Source: a virus. Taken from it: 21,002 bases of DNA. The translations under genes and the position numbers were made by a program. Under the pieces are notes generated by a model. It did not search any database. It was given only the letters and a program-made list of their open reading frames with translations, and had not been told where the DNA came from. This document shows positions 2,493 to 17,280 of this stretch, piece after piece. Numbering within the stretch: position 1 is the stretch's first letter; each line of letters starts with the position of its first letter. The stretch spans positions 1 through 21,002 of the IMG/VR virus record IMGVR_UViG_3300036939_000016; one strand, given 5' to 3'.

Positions 2493-4688
2493 CTATGTCA
2501 TCTGACCCTCAGTGAGGTTTGCTAAACCTACCGCTGAGGGTTTATTGAATGTTCGTGACCCGGTCTTAAACTGGTCTTTAGGATAGCCCTGCAAGTCCCA
2601 ATGAAGGTGGGCAGCAACACCACCAGTGTTACCACTCCGACCAATGACCTTAGCTCGTTGGACACTATCACCAGCCTTAACAAACATGGCGGATAAGTGC
2701 ATACACCTACTAGTACCACCGTCAGTATGTCTTATGGCAATGCAGTTACCACCAGCCCCAATGTTCTTGGCATACTCCACGACCCCATCATTCATTGCCA
2801 CTACTGGGATACCAATGGGCGTCCCGACATCCTCACCACAATGGGGGCTAGTACCTATGTTCCTTATCTTGGCACACCGACTGGTCACTGGATAGCCTGA
2901 CACGGGTCTAATATATCCCGTTGCCGTTGGCTTACCAGTGATAGGTGCCGGTTGAGCAGGGTCAGTGGGTGTTGTGTTGTCTAGCACTTCCACAGGACTG
3001 TAACAGTGTAAGACCGTGTGACCCTCCGCCAACCTATGCTCTACCTTATCAACGCACCATATCCGGCTGAGAACCCCTGGTAGACCCTCAGTGAGTACTG
3101 TCCAGAGTGGCTCAAACATGAGTGAGTTATTATCGAGTGGTATTGTAAACTTACTAGGGAGACCCTTTAACCGCTTAGTCCTAGACCGCATTGAGTCCGC
3201 TAGTCCAGCTTGCTCTTGACTTATTGACCCGGTAGCAGGGGCAACAGGTGACCCGGTAACATCCTTTGACGTTGCCGTATCAACATCGGGTTTGGTCTGA
3301 GTCAGTTGACCGGAGGCAATATCTAACTCAACCTTATTCTCAGACTGAAGCATTGAGCTGCTAGCATCCTCAGCCTCATCTGTCAAGGCTTTATCCTCAA
3401 TATCCCAGCTTATAAGGTTGAGACCCGGATATAGTACATATGCACTATCCACTAGGTTAGCCAGTGACTTAACCGTGATGACATTATTGACTGATGAAAG
3501 GAATAGACCGCAGCGGTCACACTCACGTTGAAGGAGCTGATAGTCAGAGATACCGGACTGGTCAATGTGTGTATATGTGAAGTCTTCAGGGGCTAACCAA
3601 GCTAACTTGACCTTATGAGCTAGCGCCACTCTCTCAGCCAGTTGCTTAAGGCTAACGCCCTGCTCAGTCTTAGACCTCTGACGCCTATTGAGTACCCATC
3701 TGACATCCTGACCGACGATAACCGTGCTGCCAGAGTCACTGGGTTTAGTGCCCTGATGAAAGAACTCAAAGCTCACATCCCCAATGGTCACAATGAGCTT
3801 ACCGCCTTTAACGATAACCTCAGGGCTGGTCTGAGAGGGTTGACCGGCTTGAGTCTCAGTAGCTACCGCCTTAACCGCAGTAGTACCACCGGCTTGAGCT
3901 TTCAGCGATGGAACCTCCTTAAGGATGGCTGTAGCTTCATTGGCTATCTTCTGACCATTCTTACCCTTGTCGCCGTTTATCATGCTTCTGGCGTTGTAGA
4001 AGTCCCGCTTAGAGCCATTGCAGTAGAAGCTAATAGGCTTACGGTTGGCGTACATCCCGTCCCTCATCCCAATGACTAGGGTCTGAGCAGCATAACGGGG
4101 TTCCGCTAACTTCTCCGGCGTTGCCACGGCATCAATACCTAACTTCTTAGACCACATCCCATAGGTCAGTTTGCCGGTCACCTGAACATAACCACGTCCA
4201 CGGTATTTATACCCATCACCGGGTTGGTCATTGCCGATATCTCTACGACCCTCTAAATACTGGAAGTAAGCTCTACTACCCTGCTCAACCATGTGGGCAT
4301 ACTTACCCGTTTCATGTTCCGCCGTTGCCAGTATATAGGCTATCTGTCCATCATCGGTTACCCCATTGGCTAAACACGTCTTAACAATGAGTAACCTATT
4401 CTCAGCTAGACCCTTAGGCGCTACCCCATCAACAACATTGATAGGTTGACCGCTAGCGTCCGCTGTAGGGGCTGATGTAGGCTGTACAAGGGGCTGAATA
4501 CCTCCGTTAGCCAGTGTATGCTCAATGAGCTTTGCAGCCGTCTTATGAGTGGGGTCAGCGATGGTCACTTGACAGGATGTTCCGCTCTTACCCTGACCAA
4601 TGGATACCCATAAGTCAGTAAGCATCCCGCCTTCACCCGTAGTCCATAGCTCATCGAACCCGTCAATATGTACTGATGCTGGTATCAT
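2493..4688 (-). CDS. baseplate hub protein with GH19 lysozyme and M23 peptidase domains
   Basis: This 731-aa protein should sit at the tail tip and cut the host cell wall during injection. Residues 1-55 and about 295-570 look like the two halves of a gpD/VgrG-type hub: a beta-rich start, then FEFFHQG and SDYQLLQRECDRCGLFL. Between them, about 95-260, lies a GH19 chitinase/lysozyme-like domain with AEHETG (catalytic Glu126 in HET), LEGRRDIGN, GDGYKYRGRGYVQVTG and a late YNARSMING. Residues 590-712 are an M23 zinc endopeptidase with complete metal and catalytic residues: H616xxxD620, CMHLS (His664) and HLH (694-696). The frame is open up to 4775, but the added 29 residues are basic and cross the divergent promoter region; MIPASVHIDG is a better hub start. 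The ATG lies 3 nt from a GTATAAATAC motif and has no Shine-Dalgarno sequence. Confidence 0.85.
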   Translation of the reverse strand: MIPASVHIDGFDELWTTGEGGMLTDLWVSIGQGKSGTSCQVTIADPTHKTAAKLIEHTLANGGIQPLVQPTSAPTADASGQPINVVDGVAPKGLAENRLLIVKTCLANGVTDDGQIAYILATAEHETGKYAHMVEQGSRAYFQYLEGRRDIGNDQPGDGYKYRGRGYVQVTGKLTYGMWSKKLGIDAVATPEKLAEPRYAAQTLVIGMRDGMYANRKPISFYCNGSKRDFYNARSMINGDKGKNGQKIANEATAILKEVPSLKAQAGGTTAVKAVATETQAGQPSQTSPEVIVKGGKLIVTIGDVSFEFFHQGTKPSDSGSTVIVGQDVRWVLNRRQRSKTEQGVSLKQLAERVALAHKVKLAWLAPEDFTYTHIDQSGISDYQLLQRECDRCGLFLSSVNNVITVKSLANLVDSAYVLYPGLNLISWDIEDKALTDEAEDASSSMLQSENKVELDIASGQLTQTKPDVDTATSKDVTGSPVAPATGSISQEQAGLADSMRSRTKRLKGLPSKFTIPLDNNSLMFEPLWTVLTEGLPGVLSRIWCVDKVEHRLAEGHTVLHCYSPVEVLDNTTPTDPAQPAPITGKPTATGYIRPVSGYPVTSRCAKIRNIGTSPHCGEDVGTPIGIPVVAMNDGVVEYAKNIGAGGNCIAIRHTDGGTSRCMHLSAMFVKAGDSVQRAKVIGRSGNTGGVAAHLHWDLQGYPKDQFKTGSRTFNKPSAVGLANLTEGQMT
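2505..2541 (+). terminator. terminator hairpin inside the 3' end of the hub gene
   Basis: Nested arms ACCCTCA (2505-2511) and AGGTTT (2515-2520) pair with AAACCT (2524-2529) and TGAGGGT (2535-2541) around the loop GCT, and TTTATT follows on the plus strand. It lies 38 nt after the last plus-strand stop but within the last codons of the minus-strand hub gene, so one DNA stretch appears to serve both. Confidence 0.55.
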
Positions 4689-6223: not shown

Positions 6224-6439
6224 ATGACACACAACATCACACATCACAGAGCAGAGAACCGGGTCAGCATTGAACCTCAGTTGACCGTAGCCCAGATGGA
6301 ACAAGTCAGGCAGATACTTAACTGCCAACGGGTCAACAGTCTCAGACCACCGGTGAACCGAACTGACTTCTACCGACGCGGCATAAGCCACGATGAGTTA
6401 CAGCGCATTCAGAACTATTTATCAGGTCTAGCACTATGA
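6224..6439 (+). CDS. hypothetical protein, 71 aa
   Basis: Unrecognised. AGGGG lies about 7 nt before the ATG. It is polar and basic, with a helical middle (TVAQMEQVRQILN) and a C-terminal helix (SHDELQRIQNYLSGLAL). It overlaps the next gene by 4 nt (ATGA), so the two are translationally coupled. Confidence 0.6.
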   Translation: MTHNITHHRAENRVSIEPQLTVAQMEQVRQILNCQRVNSLRPPVNRTDFYRRGISHDELQRIQNYLSGLAL

Positions 6440-6666
6440 GTGAACCCATCAACCCATATACCCAGTTGAGACACCGCATTAGACAGCGCTATGGTGCCGT
6501 TGCTGTTGAGTCCAGCGCTGAGTTCCTAGCTGGTTATGCACAGGGCAGAATAGTTGATATGAGGTTTAAATACTGGGCTAATGAGGCGGATATTGCCATC
6601 AACCGTGGTGCCCAGTATGCTTGGGGCTTCTATGCCGGTCTCATGAATGAAGACATCTCACTGTAA
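6436..6666 (+). CDS. small protein of the GYxxG...AWG[FY]xxG[YL] paralog family, 76 aa
   Basis: One of three paralogs in this window (with 8338-8547 and 8544-8735). All share an N-terminal helix with basic residues (LRHRIRQRYG), then a core FLAGYAQGR, about 20 residues, and QYAWGFYAGL at the C-terminus. Function unknown; the conserved Gly and aromatic pattern suggests two packed helices. The ATGA overlap with the upstream gene supports this start. It is followed after 7 nt by a GTATAAATAC motif. Confidence 0.65.
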   Translation: MSEPINPYTQLRHRIRQRYGAVAVESSAEFLAGYAQGRIVDMRFKYWANEADIAINRGAQYAWGFYAGLMNEDISL

Positions 6667-6693: not shown

Positions 6694-6870
6694 ATGAAAG
6701 AGATAACCACCGCTCAAGCTTCCAATGTTGCGGCACACATCCGGTTAATGAATAGCTATGCAGGGCAACTGATGCGGACTAGAGACCAGATAGAGAGGCG
6801 GTCACTGCTAGCAGCCCTGCGAGATGTTTACCAGAGCTTCACAGCCCTGCTAGACTCAATGAGTGACTAA
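6694..6870 (+). CDS. small helical protein, 58 aa
   Basis: A short open frame starting MKEITTAQASNVAAHIRLMN and ending LLDSMSD. It is almost wholly helix-forming and amphipathic with alternating Arg/Glu and Leu (RTRDQIERRSLLAALRDVYQ), as in small coiled-coil proteins. It fills the gap between a GTATAAATAC motif (11 nt upstream) and a second copy that starts right at its stop codon. There is no ribosome site, so translation from a very short or absent leader is likely if it is real. The function is unknown. Confidence 0.55.
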   Translation: MKEITTAQASNVAAHIRLMNSYAGQLMRTRDQIERRSLLAALRDVYQSFTALLDSMSD

Positions 6871-7236: not shown

Positions 7237-7255
7237 ACCTATTTCCTCAATATTT

Positions 7256-7302
7256 TATAACAATGCCCGGTGATAACAAAGTCACTGGGCATTATTGTTA
7301 TA
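7256..7302. terminator. large hairpin, probably a two-way terminator
   Basis: AATGCCCGGTGA (7262-7273) pairs with TCACTGGGCATT (7282-7293) with one G-T pair, and the stem continues outward as TATAAC (7256-7261) with GTTATA (7297-7302) after a 3-nt bulge. The stem totals 18 bp around an 8-nt loop. A/T-rich flanks on both sides suit termination in either direction. It marks the left border of the non-coding control region 7237-7643. Confidence 0.65.
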
Positions 7303-7327
7303 AGGCTGACTTATAGGCTGACTGTCT

Positions 7328-7358
7328 TATTGAGAATGACCCCTCTATATTCTCAATA
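7328..7358. repeat. 10-bp inverted repeat
   Basis: TATTGAGAAT (7328-7337) and ATTCTCAATA (7349-7358) are perfect inverted copies separated by 11 nt. Just before it, GGCTGACT occurs twice (from 7305 and 7317). It is the second dyad of the control region; the role is unknown. Confidence 0.5.
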
Positions 7359-7406
7359 GTGGCGTTAGGGCAATATTTCAAGTTGGGTCTGTTATTTGCG
7401 TAGCCA

Positions 7407-7420
7407 GGTCAAATATGACC
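7407..7420. repeat. palindrome GGTCAnnnnTGACC
   Basis: GGTCA (7407-7411) and TGACC (7416-7420) surround AATA. The overlapping 13-mer CAGGTCAAATATG (7405-7417) is repeated exactly at 7634-7646, where its last three bases are the start codon of the ribbon-helix-helix gene. A protein-binding site is plausible. Confidence 0.45.
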
Positions 7421-7426
7421 TACGGA

Positions 7427-7524
7427 GGCTGTAACCCTTACTGTGTATACATTCTTGGTAGGTCTCAAGCAGGTCAGTGGTAGCCTACCAAATGAGCCAT
7501 CCTTACACCATAAGGGTTACAGCC
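7427..7524. repeat. 98-nt dyad with three nested stems
   Basis: The outer arms GGCTGTAACCCTTA (7427-7440) and TAAGGGTTACAGCC (7511-7524) are a perfect 14-bp inverted repeat. Inside, GTGTA (7443-7447) pairs with TACAC (7504-7508), and TTGGTAGG (7455-7462) pairs with CCTACCAA (7484-7491), leaving a 21-nt loop. It could form a long RNA hairpin, a DNA cruciform or an origin-type structure. No coding frame or transposase is associated with it. Confidence 0.6.
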
Positions 7525-7533
7525 ATTAGTCCT

Positions 7534-7566
7534 GTAGACAGGTCGTAGACAGCCCGTAGACAGGTC
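7534..7566 (+). repeat. 11-bp direct repeats, cluster 1 (three copies)
   Basis: GTAGACAGGTC (7534-7544), GTAGACAGCCC (7545-7555) and GTAGACAGGTC (7556-7566) lie head to tail with an exact 11-bp period, about one helical turn. They are upstream of the TATAAT promoter of the ribbon-helix-helix gene. The pattern fits an operator or iteron array for a helical-phase DNA binder. Confidence 0.8.
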
Positions 7567-7576
7567 AGTGAATAGG

Positions 7577-7605
7577 TGGGCAAGATGCCTAGGTCACGTT
7601 ATAAT
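7577..7605 (+). promoter_or_regulatory. promoter with perfect TATAAT between two repeat clusters
   Basis: TATAAT (7600-7605) is a perfect -10 box. TGGGCA (7577-7582), 17 nt upstream, is a weak -35 box (4 of 6). The start site would fall near 7612, inside the second cluster of 11-bp repeats, so proteins bound to the repeats could block or recruit polymerase. Confidence 0.65.
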
Positions 7606-7606
7606 G

Positions 7607-7639
7607 GTAGACAGGACGTAGACAGGACGTAGACAGGTC
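7607..7639 (+). repeat. 11-bp direct repeats, cluster 2 (three copies)
   Basis: GTAGACAGGAC (7607-7617), GTAGACAGGAC (7618-7628) and GTAGACAGGTC (7629-7639) have an exact 11-bp period. The cluster begins right after the -10 box and ends 4 nt before the ATG of the ribbon-helix-helix gene, so it covers the whole leader and displaces a normal ribosome site. Confidence 0.8.
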
Positions 7640-7643
7640 AAAT

Positions 7644-8015
7644 ATGGGTAGGAATGCACAGGTTAAGATGAGCGTCAGCTTAGAGGATATGGAGCTTATA
7701 AAGCAACGTGCCGACCAAGCAGGAATGAGCGTGAGTGCGTATATGTACTCATTGGTACTACCAGAGCGTAGCCCGGTCGTAGACAGGTCACAGACAGGCT
7801 ACCCCCAACCGCAGGGGCTAACACCGGAGATGAAGGAGGATATCGCTATCGAATGCTACAAAGTGACTAATGAGATACAGCACTGGGCAGACGGTGAGCA
7901 TAAGCGCCTAGATGCAGTGACCACGGCACAGCAAGCTGAGATAGACCGCCTCAAAGCACAGCTATCCGCCATTGAGTCTAGAGTCACAGAGTTTATGGTT
8001 GACAACTTCAGCTAA
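7644..8015 (+). CDS. ribbon-helix-helix DNA-binding protein with coiled-coil tail, 123 aa
   Basis: Residues 7-42 show the ribbon-helix-helix pattern: strand QVKMSVSLED, helix MELIKQRADQAG, turn MSVSAY, helix MYSLVLP. The C-terminal half has a long charged helix (HKRLDAVTTAQQAEIDRLKAQLSAIESR), likely a coiled coil for oligomerisation. I keep the ATG at 7644, although no ribosome site precedes it, because the paralog at 8051 aligns from its first residue. Clusters of 11-bp repeats lie upstream, in the leader and inside the gene (7768-7800), so it probably binds them and regulates itself. RHH proteins of this kind include plasmid copy, partition and mobilisation regulators (CopG, ParG, MobC); which role applies here is unknown. 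Confidence 0.75.
   Translation: MGRNAQVKMSVSLEDMELIKQRADQAGMSVSAYMYSLVLPERSPVVDRSQTGYPQPQGLTPEMKEDIAIECYKVTNEIQHWADGEHKRLDAVTTAQQAEIDRLKAQLSAIESRVTEFMVDNFS
7768..7800 (+). repeat. 11-bp repeats, cluster 3, inside the RHH gene
   Basis: GTAGCCCGGTC (7768-7778, 9 of 11 matches), GTAGACAGGTC (7779-7789, perfect) and ACAGACAGGCT (7790-7800, degenerate) again follow each other with an 11-bp period. They encode the linker (SPVVDRSQTGYP) between the DNA-binding and coiled-coil parts of the protein. Confidence 0.65.
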
Positions 8016-8050
8016 TAGATGGTATAGTTAGGTAAGTTAGAGGTTTAAAG

Positions 8051-8341
8051 ATGACACGCAACATCCCAGTTAAAGTATTAGTTACCGCTTCCGAGGCTGA
8101 GTTGATAAAGGCTAGGGCTTCTGAGGCTGGTCTATCTGTCAGCTCTTATATCTACTCATTGATATTCCCGGTAGCACAACCTACCAATAATGTCAATGAC
8201 CTCAGCTCTGAGGTATCTGAGATGAAAGTTACATACCACGAGTGCTTCGATACCATCATCACACGACTGGAAGCCCAGAATGACCGGATACACAGGTTTG
8301 AGCGTTTCATGTGGTCTCAGACTAAGGAGAACAACCAATGA
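8051..8341 (+). CDS. second ribbon-helix-helix protein, paralog of 7644-8015, 96 aa
   Basis: It aligns with its upstream neighbour from residue 1: MTRNIPVKVLVTASEAELIK against MGRNAQVKMSVSLEDMELIK, then ARASEAGLSVSSYIYSLIFP against QRADQAGMSVSAYMYSLVLP. The C-terminal part (about 55-96) is a different, shorter helix (FDTIITRLEAQNDRIHRFERFM). GAGG lies 8 nt before the ATG. A tandem duplication followed by divergence explains the pair; they could form heterodimers or bind different sites. It overlaps the next gene by 4 nt. Confidence 0.75.
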   Translation: MTRNIPVKVLVTASEAELIKARASEAGLSVSSYIYSLIFPVAQPTNNVNDLSSEVSEMKVTYHECFDTIITRLEAQNDRIHRFERFMWSQTKENNQ

Positions 8342-8547
8342 CAGCACCGACACTTAAGGACTTAAAGACCCGGATGCGGCTAGAGTTCACTGGTCATCAG
8401 GTTGACCGTAACAGCACTGAATACGTTCAGGGTTATAACCAGGGTCAATGTTCCGCGTCAGTACCCATTGGGGCTGTGCTGAATATGTCGCCGGATATGG
8501 CATGGGGCTTTGTAGAAGGTTACGAGTCTATCAGGGGGCGTCAGTGA
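8338..8547 (+). CDS. GYxxG...AWG[FY]xxGY family protein, 69 aa
   Basis: Second member of the paralog family seen at 6436-6666. It has a basic helical start (LKDLKTRMRLEF), then EYVQGYNQGQ, a spacer of about 17 residues and DMAWGFVEGY. Its start overlaps the RHH gene (ATGA) and its stop overlaps the next paralog (GTGA), so RHH and both small proteins form one coupled operon. The function is unknown. Confidence 0.65.
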   Translation: MTAPTLKDLKTRMRLEFTGHQVDRNSTEYVQGYNQGQCSASVPIGAVLNMSPDMAWGFVEGYESIRGRQ

Positions 8548-8735
8548 GCGATACCGACAAGGCACGGGATAAGATAGCTAAGGCATTTGGCTGTACCGTC
8601 AACCAATGCTCTGATGACTACAAGAAAGCATATCATCTAGGTAACAATGCTCACAACCTGCCCATTGATATGCTAATAAACACCAACGCTAACTATGCTT
8701 GGGGCTATCTCAACGGATATCTAGCAAGAGACTAA
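8544..8735 (+). CDS. GYxxG...AWG[FY]xxGY family protein, 63 aa
   Basis: Third family member. The start is GTG at 8544, overlapping the previous stop (GTGA), with GGGGGC about 6 nt upstream; the ATG at 8448 in the same frame lies inside the neighbour and yields no related sequence. It shows DYKKAYHLGN and NYAWGYLNGY separated by about 18 residues, with a helical, Lys-rich start (DKARDKIAKAFG). Two copies in tandem indicate local duplication. Confidence 0.65.
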   Translation: MSDTDKARDKIAKAFGCTVNQCSDDYKKAYHLGNNAHNLPIDMLINTNANYAWGYLNGYLARD

Positions 8736-8945: not shown

Positions 8946-8974
8946 AGTGACGTAAAAGATGTCACACTAAATAG

Positions 8975-9004
8975 TTGACAGGGCAGCATCTACCGAGCTA
9001 TATT
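8975..9004 (+). promoter_or_regulatory. sigma70-type promoter with upstream element
   Basis: TTGACA (8975-8980), an 18-nt spacer and TATATT (8999-9004). The upstream sequence GACGTAAAAGATGT, ending 11 nt before ATAGTTGACA, recurs almost exactly before the promoter at 16697 (GACATAAAAGATGT). Confidence 0.7.
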
Positions 9005-14080: not shown

Positions 14081-14256
14081 TTGTTATCCGTCCACAGTTC
14101 CGCTATAACTTCAATGGTCTCTATGACATCCCATAACTCTAGGTCTTTATACTTAATGAGGTACCCATTGGCTAGGTTACCGCAAGCTTTAACCACGGCA
14201 ACCTTTAACTCATGGGTTGTGAAGCCACGACCATAGAAGTTATAAACCGGCTCATC
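14077..14256 (-). CDS. T-frame extension of the tail assembly chaperone (+1 frameshift product)
   Basis: An open frame that lacks its own start codon begins inside the end of the chaperone gene and runs to a TGA at 14077-14079 overlapping the tape measure ATG. It encodes 59 residues after the shift, DEPVYNFYGRGFTTHELKVA through to ELWTDNK, a compact helical domain. It is joined to the chaperone by reading CUG GGC AAA G GAU GAG instead of GGC AAA GGA UGA: tRNA-Lys on AAA can slip +1 onto AAG with full pairing. The fusion is 164 aa (105 + 59). Lambda G/GT and many other tails make such a pair, usually by -1; Mu by -2. A -2 shift would reach the same frame here but with poor re-pairing. Confidence 0.75.
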   Translation of the reverse strand, partial: DEPVYNFYGRGFTTHELKVAVVKACGNLANGYLIKYKDLELWDVIETIEVIAELWTDNK

Positions 14257-14572
14257 CTTTGCCCAGTTGACTGAAAGCTGGAAACAACCGGAGGGCTGAC
14301 CCTAACACCTCCACATCTTCACTATCGAGGTCAAGGAACTGGTCTAAGCTCATTGGGGTCTCAAGTAGCTGGCTTACCATGACGTACATGACCCTTAAGG
14401 CTGACAACGGCTGACCAGTCCTTTGAGCCTCACTGATGGCTGTATCAATGTTGTCTAAGTGCCTAGCCTTGACCGGGTTCATCACCACTCTCTGACCAGA
14501 GATAGGCAACTGTTCAATAATGACCTGTCTACGGTCATTCATCATTGGGACTGTCTGTTCTGATGTATCCAT
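14252..14572 (-). CDS. tail assembly chaperone (G-like), 106 aa
   Basis: Its place between tail tube and tape measure and its frameshift partner identify it as the short chaperone that coats the tape measure before the tube polymerises. It is a mixed helical protein (VKARHLDNIDTAISEAQRTG, SALRVMYVMVSQLLETPM, DQFLDLDSEDVEVLGSALRL) ending QLGKG. The ATG is preceded by AAGGTG. The stop UGA (14252-14254) lies two codons after the probable slip site AAA-G at 14257-14260. A GATAAATAAC stretch upstream may be a weak late promoter. Confidence 0.8.
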   Translation of the reverse strand: MDTSEQTVPMMNDRRQVIIEQLPISGQRVVMNPVKARHLDNIDTAISEAQRTGQPLSALRVMYVMVSQLLETPMSLDQFLDLDSEDVEVLGSALRLFPAFSQLGKG

Positions 14573-16608: not shown

Positions 16609-16612
16609 AAGA

Positions 16613-16622
16613 GTATTGATAC
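16613..16622 (-). promoter_or_regulatory. GTATNNATAC motif before the sheath gene
   Basis: The minus strand reads ATAGGTATCAATACTCTTATG, less its first base: the same layout as before the hub and spike genes, with TATCAATA as core and the start codon 4 nt beyond the motif. It is the only promoter candidate for the main tail operon in this window. Confidence 0.45.
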
Positions 16623-16696
16623 CTATAGACTGTCACAGCTAGCGCTGTCCTCATTGGTGTAAGTCATTATGACATAAAAGATGTTAGAGAATATAG

Positions 16697-16725
16697 TTGA
16701 CATCACTGGTCAGACTTGCTACTAT
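16697..16725 (+). promoter_or_regulatory. strong sigma70-type promoter of the non-coding RNA/tRNA unit
   Basis: TTGACA (16697-16702), a 17-nt spacer and TACTAT (16720-16725). The upstream element GACATAAAAGATGT followed by ATAGTTGACA matches the promoter at 8975. Transcription would begin near 16732 and read into the tandem repeats and tRNA-Trp. Confidence 0.75.
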
Positions 16726-16761
16726 ATAAGAGTAAGAGACAGGGAGACAAGAGCCGGTTGT

Positions 16762-16810
16762 TGAGGTAGTGAGTAATAAGGGCGGGTTACACTGCATCCT
16801 TTCACACCCA
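16762..16810 (+). repeat. 49-nt structured repeat, copy A
   Basis: TGAGGTAGTGAGTAATAAGG at the 5' end and CATCCTTTCACACCCA at the 3' end flank a variable middle. GGT and GTGA (A bulged between them) pair with TCAC-ACC, and AAGG pairs with CCTT after a 5-nt bulge GTAAT. The result is an 11-bp bulged hairpin with a loop of about 16 nt. Copy B lies 110 nt downstream with 44 of 49 identical bases. Confidence 0.7.
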
Positions 16811-16871
16811 ACGCATAACTAGCAGTTAGTCAAGACTGACTCTTACAAACCTGGTTATCCTGGTTGACCGC

Positions 16872-16920
16872 TGAGGTAGTGAGTAATAAGGGAGGTTTAG
16901 GCTTCATCCTTTCACACCCA
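16872..16920 (+). repeat. 49-nt structured repeat, copy B
   Basis: Identical to copy A at both ends; all five differences fall in the 14-nt middle, which forms the hairpin loop. Constant stems and bulges with a changing loop suggest selection on RNA or DNA structure. The 61-nt interval shows no third copy, but GTGAGTAA recurs once more near 17018. Confidence 0.7.
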
Positions 16921-17122
16921 GTCAAGGTCAAACTAATGTTAACCATTTCTCAATGTTACATTCTTGTTTGTAGGGACTCAGACGCCGTTGAGGACTGAAA
17001 GCATCCGAGAGGGTGAGTAAACCTAGCGTTCTGAAAGGTCTACGAACTGGTCAACTACCCGCCTAATGGGTCAGGTTAATGAGCGAATGTTGATAGCTCA
17101 TTGGTCTGATACCAGAGGGCAA

Positions 17123-17165: not shown

Positions 17166-17180
17166 CGGTGGTTACCTCAT

Positions 17181-17252
17181 GGGTCAGAAATGCTCACGGT
17201 GAGCTATTAGCCTCCAAAGCTGATGGTTAGGGTTCGACCCCCTACTGACTCG
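17181..17252 (+). tRNA. tRNA-Trp (anticodon CCA)
   Basis: Folded by hand. Acceptor: GGGTCAG (17181-17187) with CTGACTC (17245-17251), 7 bp with one G-T. D arm: GCTC/GAGC with a short loop ACGGT. Anticodon arm: TTAGC/GCTGA (one G-T) with loop CTCCAAA, U33 present, anticodon CCA at 17214-17216. Variable loop TGGT. T arm: TAGGG/CCCTA with loop TTCGACC. Discriminator G73 (17252), a bacterial tryptophan identity base. The total is 72 nt. No CCA is encoded directly after it. Oddities are the short D loop, four bases instead of two between acceptor and D stem, and no U8. It may be a degenerate or specialised phage tRNA. CCA anticodon agrees with UGA being a stop here. Confidence 0.7.
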
Positions 17253-17280
17253 TTGTCCAATAACCTTATCTTATACATCA

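Follow-up and report, generated by a model that had tools for sequence, protein, structure and literature searches.

What is the role of two sets of three 11-bp direct repeats that flank a TATAAT box immediately upstream of a ribbon-helix-helix (RHH) gene? The locus belongs to an IMG/VR virus fragment (G000) of 21,002 bases, not a complete genome, whose whole length is referred to below as the window. The tail sheath that it encodes shares 31-35% identity with those of Nostoc, Anabaena and Leptolyngbya phages, the bacterial-genome loci retrieved with the sheath alignments are cyanobacterial in every case, and the Leptolyngbya phage Lbo402-yong5 matches the hub, tape-measure and tail genes of the window at 28-38%. 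To judge by these alignments, the phage is a relative of the cyanobacterial phages, and its host is presumably a cyanobacterium. The analysis described here suggests that the repeats are probably an autoregulatory operator array of the adjacent RHH gene, named here RHH1.

The repeated unit, GTAGACAGGWC, is present in three plus three copies with a period of exactly 11 bp on either side of the TATAAT (Table 1). An earlier note on this sequence had described two clusters of three exact-period repeats around a TATAAT at 7600-7605. The box is present as claimed and the positions and period of the clusters are correct, but the copies are less uniform than stated: GTAGACAGG[T/A]C fits five of the six, the middle upstream copy being GTAGACAGCCC, with two mismatches. 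All six intergenic copies are in the forward orientation, as is every copy in the region. When the array is compared with itself at an offset of 11, 21 of 22 positions match, as against at most 16 at period 11 in 200 Markov shuffles, whose best score over all periods between 6 and 30 is 19; the period is beyond chance. Several additional elements had been overlooked in that note, namely a third triad, two single copies of the unit and a long dyad. The third triad, located within the RHH1 gene itself, is degenerate (9, 11 and 7 of 11 matches for its successive copies) and keeps the same phase as the main triads. Among 5000 synonymous recodings of RHH1 that respect the phage's own codon use, none produced an equivalent of this inner triad and 33 produced one exact copy, so that synonymous codon choice alone is an unlikely source. 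The single related copy upstream shares, with the bases around it, 18 of 19 positions with the start region of RHH1; a 22-codon ORF beginning at 7415 has this 19-bp leader, nearly that of RHH1, and extends into the dyad. The exact copy on the minus strand is situated early in the gene 14252-14572, which comes after the tail tube gene. Taken on its sequence, the array is a real, well-ordered regulatory element.

Table 1. Coordinates in the window of the repeats, predicted signals and genes at the RHH1 locus
Feature	Position	Strand	Details
Terminator-like hairpin closing the upstream gene block	7262..7293	+	
Single related copy	7400..7410	+	GTAGCCAGGTC; AAATATG next, as at the RHH1 start
Long dyad/hairpin	7427..7524	.	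98 nt; inner 8-bp stem TTGGTAGG/CCTACCAA
Upstream triad	7534..7566	+	GTAGACAGGTC GTAGACAGCCC GTAGACAGGTC; starts 7534, 7545, 7556
Predicted RHH1 promoter	7577..7605	+	TGGGCA-17-TATAAT; 10/12 consensus positions
Downstream triad	7607..7639	+	GTAGACAGGAC GTAGACAGGAC GTAGACAGGTC; starts 7607, 7618, 7629
RHH1	7644..8015	+	123 aa; N-terminal RHH (Arc/NikA-like), linker, helix 61-122; PF21983 1.9e-8
Third, degenerate triad within the RHH1 gene	7768..7800	+	GTAGCCCGGTC GTAGACAGGTC ACAGACAGGCT; starts 7768, 7779, 7790
Predicted own promoter of RHH2	7999..8028	+	TTGACA-18-TATAGT; without repeats
RHH2, paralogue of RHH1	8051..8341	+	96 aa; Pfam NikA-like 6.4e-9
Single exact copy	14522-14532	-	GTAGACAGGTC; about 0.02 expected by chance

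The predicted RHH1 promoter fits in the 40-bp gap that separates the two triads, the GC content of which is 45%. This promoter is a prediction only, because six promoter-like sites were found as compared with 4.7 in shuffles; TATAAT occurs just three times on the plus strand of the window. The downstream triad spans the predicted start site and the leader and ends 4 bp before the RHH1 ATG, with its last AGG positioned like a Shine-Dalgarno sequence, in agreement with the earlier proposal that this cluster takes the place of the leader. The starts of the two triads are 73 bp apart, which corresponds arithmetically to about seven helical turns of 10.5 bp each; both triads should therefore lie on the same side of the helix, from where they could make contact over the promoter. 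The whole arrangement occupies a gap of 407 bp (7237-7643), the second-largest between called genes. In the same gap, the outer stem of the long dyad (7427-7440/7511-7524) is a perfect 14-bp pairing within a 21-nt, 90% dyad; its folding is pronounced as RNA (z -4.6) and as DNA (z -5.7), and no T run comes after it. An Rfam search returned no match. A perfect 10-bp inverted repeat of operator-like appearance, TATTGAGAAT/ATTCTCAATA, is also observed at 7328-7358 with a spacer of 11 nt.

The assignment of the downstream gene to the RHH class, already made in the earlier note, is correct, to judge by the Pfam NikA-like scores of the two RHH proteins (34.8 and 36.3 bits for a cut-off of 27) and by the presence of Arc and of the NikA N-domain among the best folds for RHH1. 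NCBIfam gives weak matches to mobilisation proteins, far under the equivalog cut-offs; the RHH domain families matched are NikA-like or mobilisation only, none being a ParR family. The predicted model of RHH1 comprises the two RHH helices followed by a 62-residue C-terminal helix; built from two sequences, it is of modest quality (pLDDT 80.6, pTM 0.38). Its fold matches are weak by E-value, with none below 0.001, but Arc and the NikA N-domain are retrieved at high Foldseek probability. Arc of phage P22, an RHH repressor, is the best solved relative of RHH1 by sequence (E 0.07) and is among the best by fold; it is much shorter than RHH1 and binds a single operator rather than triads. Residues 9, 11 and 13 of Arc face the DNA, and residue 6 of RHH1 aligns with Arc 9; positions 6, 8 and 10 should therefore face the DNA in the new proteins. 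In the alignment these are Q6/K8/S10 in RHH1 and P6/K8/L10 in RHH2. Since these predicted residues differ, the two paralogues should recognise distinct DNA sequences or else combine into mixed dimers.

A one-way, strictly periodic array placed on the own promoter of an RHH gene is the pattern of an RHH autorepressor, and both of its components, an RHH domain in the gene product and tandem sites at the own promoter, are observed here. From this layout we infer that RHH1 is the binder and that it would act by cooperative binding, repression and looping. One RHH1 dimer would contact each 11-bp unit through its beta-ribbon, and dimers on adjacent units, lined up along a single helical face, would bind cooperatively. 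The filled array would shut the promoter, because the triads flank it and the second one covers the start site and the Shine-Dalgarno sequence; RHH1 would in this way limit its own synthesis. Contact between the two triads over the promoter, of the sort seen in the ParR-parC complex of R1, may also occur, and the weak triad within the RHH1 gene may serve as an auxiliary site. If this operator reading is true, the locus offers a clean natural array with one unit, one spacing and three triads of graded quality, suited to the measurement of RHH dimer cooperativity along DNA, and it adds a phage, from a group that has received little study, to the cases of plasmid-partition-like layout.

RHH operator arrays of such a layout are known already. 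Plasmid R1 comes nearest in layout: its parC, which belongs to the type II partition system ParMRC, consists of two blocks with the par promoter between them, and ParR binds and represses it (PMC5016525); a 22-bp oligonucleotide corresponds to parC iterons 1 and 2 (PMC4949242). The present locus resembles R1 parC by its tandem repeats of about 11 bp in two blocks flanking a promoter, which in R1 are bound and autorepressed by an RHH protein. It differs from it by its 3+3 repeats instead of 5+5, by an unrelated repeat sequence, by the identity of the first gene (the RHH protein here, ParM in R1), by an RHH protein that is Arc/NikA-like and not of a ParR family, and by the motor gene, not found in the 21-kb fragment. 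In plasmid R388, the stbDRs surround their own promoter with 9-bp repeats, two bases apart and in two sets of five, and stability does not require the motor-like gene (PMC3098194). Here too, two sets of direct repeats with an 11-bp period surround the promoter of the operon encoding the binder, promoter and binder both being predicted in our case; the R388 unit is however a 9-bp sequence, TTGCATCAT, and StbA, of the TraK type (homologue TraK_RP4), is not known to be an RHH protein. Viral precedents exist as well. F55 of SSV1 is a viral RHH repressor whose 11-nt site is repeated in its own and in early promoters (PMC9608457, PMC5569661). A virus-encoded RHH protein and an 11-nt site present in several copies, its own promoter included, are common to both systems. 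SSV1 nevertheless has an archaeal host, its site is ATAGATAGAGT, with one or two tandem-repeat binding sites per promoter, and F55, with 55 aa, is devoid of the long C-terminal helix of RHH1. In Bacillus phage B83, an RHH protein is associated with iterons in the 165 bp before a parM-like gene (PMC6669507); this segregation locus also combines a phage RHH protein with repeats, but it includes a ParM-like motor and the prophage is in a plasmid state. The remark in the earlier note that no described phage system with this repeat was known to it is too strong, because SSV1 F55 and phage B83 precede it.

Three readings had been put forward at the outset. An autorepressed switch fits best, a replication-iteron origin fits worse, and a centromere has the appropriate geometry, but no motor gene was found in the fragment. 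According to this last explanation, which is on the whole unlikely, RHH1 would be the adaptor and the triads a small parC by which an extrachromosomal prophage is kept in the cell, autorepression being included; the motor would be encoded elsewhere in the phage, or replaced by hitch-hiking on the host nucleoid as proposed for R388 StbA. The geometry of R1 parC (PMC5016525) and of the R388 stbDRs (PMC3098194), the RHH adaptor and iterons of phage B83 (PMC6669507), and the association of the array with a dyad within an unusually large gap all speak for it. The two iteron blocks around a promoter that are typical of ParMRC are indeed present, but neither a ParR-family adaptor, RHH1 matching NikA-like instead, nor a ParM gene was found in the 21-kb fragment: no Pfam match to a ParM, ParA or TubZ motor was obtained among the scanned proteins, PF06406 giving no match with a search control that was equally silent. 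The repeats are moreover 3+3 only, where R1 has 5+5, and no extrachromosomal lysogeny is known for this phage. A compact, motor-less variant, in which RHH1 would wrap the triads in a parC-like manner, silence the promoter and hold an extrachromosomal genome, acting perhaps through its 62-residue C-terminal helix together with the adjacent dyad, is a long shot. The same dyad, which adjoins the array, could also be seen as a plasmid-derived oriT remnant, with RHH1 and RHH2 as NikA/MobC-type accessory proteins. Pfam NikA-like is the best family for both proteins, the weak NCBIfam matches are to mobilisation proteins, and the RHH protein MobC of RA3, which is located beside oriT, is an autorepressor (PMC4175270). 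A transfer origin is still very improbable: NikA-like is a broad family, the NCBIfam scores are too low for an equivalog, the RA3 MobC site is a palindrome and not a set of 11-bp direct repeats, and a NikA-like RHH domain is found here with no relaxase among the scanned window proteins. Slippage can expand direct repeats, and the array might be the functionless leftover of a tandem duplication. This explanation is the hardest to believe, given that unit and phase recur at three separate places, one of them in a coding stretch, and that one triad overlies the promoter start.

The remaining explanation, a replication origin in which the repeats would be iterons of a phage initiator and RHH1 a neighbour or a copy-control factor, is unlikely and ranks, on the sequence comparisons, below the operator reading, against which it counts that the 8-bp repeat core recurs in origin iterons of other elements. 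When viral contigs were searched for a pair of GTAGACAG words at a distance of 11 bp, a looser criterion than the exact repeat pair, 26 loci were retrieved, 17 of them with at least three clustered copies. Those that could be assigned lie beside D5/VapE helicases, and GTAGACAG clusters are found next to such SF3 primase-helicases in unrelated phages and satellites (L088, L067/L068, L072, L089). SF3 origins (D5/VapE, P4 alpha-like) resemble the present array by their short clustered repeats, some with the word GTAGACAG. They are however mostly in both orientations, unevenly spaced, beside the helicase or initiator gene and often around a more A+T-rich gap, whereas the window array is one-way and strictly periodic, and no D5/VapE/P4-alpha initiator was found among the scanned window proteins. 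Two-way iterons and an A+T-rich gap, for which L088, L089 and L073 provide the comparison, are missing here: all six copies are forward, and the 40-bp gap has 45% GC, near the window mean of 49%, as compared with 31% for 48% in L088. The shared GTAGACAG word is itself not diagnostic, because 12 D5/VapE phages, picked by protein and not by repeat, have TAGACA at background and in most cases carry other repeated words beside the helicase gene (GTGAACA, TGCAACA, GGGTTAC, GGGACAA, CTACACT and others). The helicase of Lbo402-yong5, for its part, matches Herpes_ori_bp and not D5/VapE. The origin explanation keeps some weight because this comparison is modest in size and because the clusters of L069, L074, L079 and L084, to which no initiator is assigned, are also mostly or wholly one-way. 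A cluster of repeats of about 11 bp in a phage may thus serve either as an RHH operator or as an SF3 origin; its orientation and spacing, as well as the gene next to it, are useful for discriminating between the two. More generally, SF3 phages and satellites (L095-L106, L067-L092) often have short iterons beside the helicase, with a word that differs by lineage and is GTAGACAG in some. In Anabaena phage A-1(L), two GCGTTACAA clusters in both orientations were also noticed (L013 4400-4850 and L012 20500-20910), one of which occupies the gap between transposase and thymidylate kinase genes, near a primase gene, and looks origin-like.

Relatives of the locus were sought at several levels. No close relative was detected by TBLASTN of RHH1 against phages and plasmids or of RHH2 against phages, by peptide patterns of both proteins in viral and genome contigs, or in the sheath-related records and 18 host genomes. 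A profile of RHH1 and RHH2 gave five weak matches in 386 cyanobacterial genomes (E 0.002-0.009); judged by eye, the best of them (L062) is a short RHH-like protein whose gene precedes an acetyltransferase-like one, and was set aside as an apparently unrelated antitoxin-acetyltransferase pair. The exact repeat pair was not found in viral contigs, and the looser one occurs in a single genome of the 386. Among the sheath relatives, one 11-bp array was observed (L033/L057, TTATGTGACTG), but the block that holds it consists of head genes, with no RHH gene among them, and this array was rejected.

Other features of the fragment can be mentioned. The small genes 6436-6666, 8338-8547 and 8540-8735 look paralogous by eye, with AWGxxxG near the C-terminus, and those scanned had no Pfam match over the cut-off. 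The largest gap between called genes (16609-17065, 457 bp) is near a tRNA-Trp gene (17180-17253) and contains a 49-nt direct repeat (16762/16872, 90%). Two 33-nt stretches, 8948-8980 and 16670-16702, are 82% alike and end with TTGACA, with TGACRTAAAAGATGTYA upstream, and are possibly a shared early promoter element. Finally, a dispersed 17-bp motif, TTGAGTATWWATACCTA, has 25 matches at four mismatches or fewer as compared with 1.7 in shuffles, among them sites at 4688, 6670, 9366, 10652, 11029 and 11176 on the plus strand and at 6868, 14140 and 16061 on the minus strand. Several are located just 5' of small plus-strand genes and the one at 14140 is upstream of the tape-measure gene; with its TATAAATA-like sequence, this motif possibly acts as a phage promoter or in regulation.
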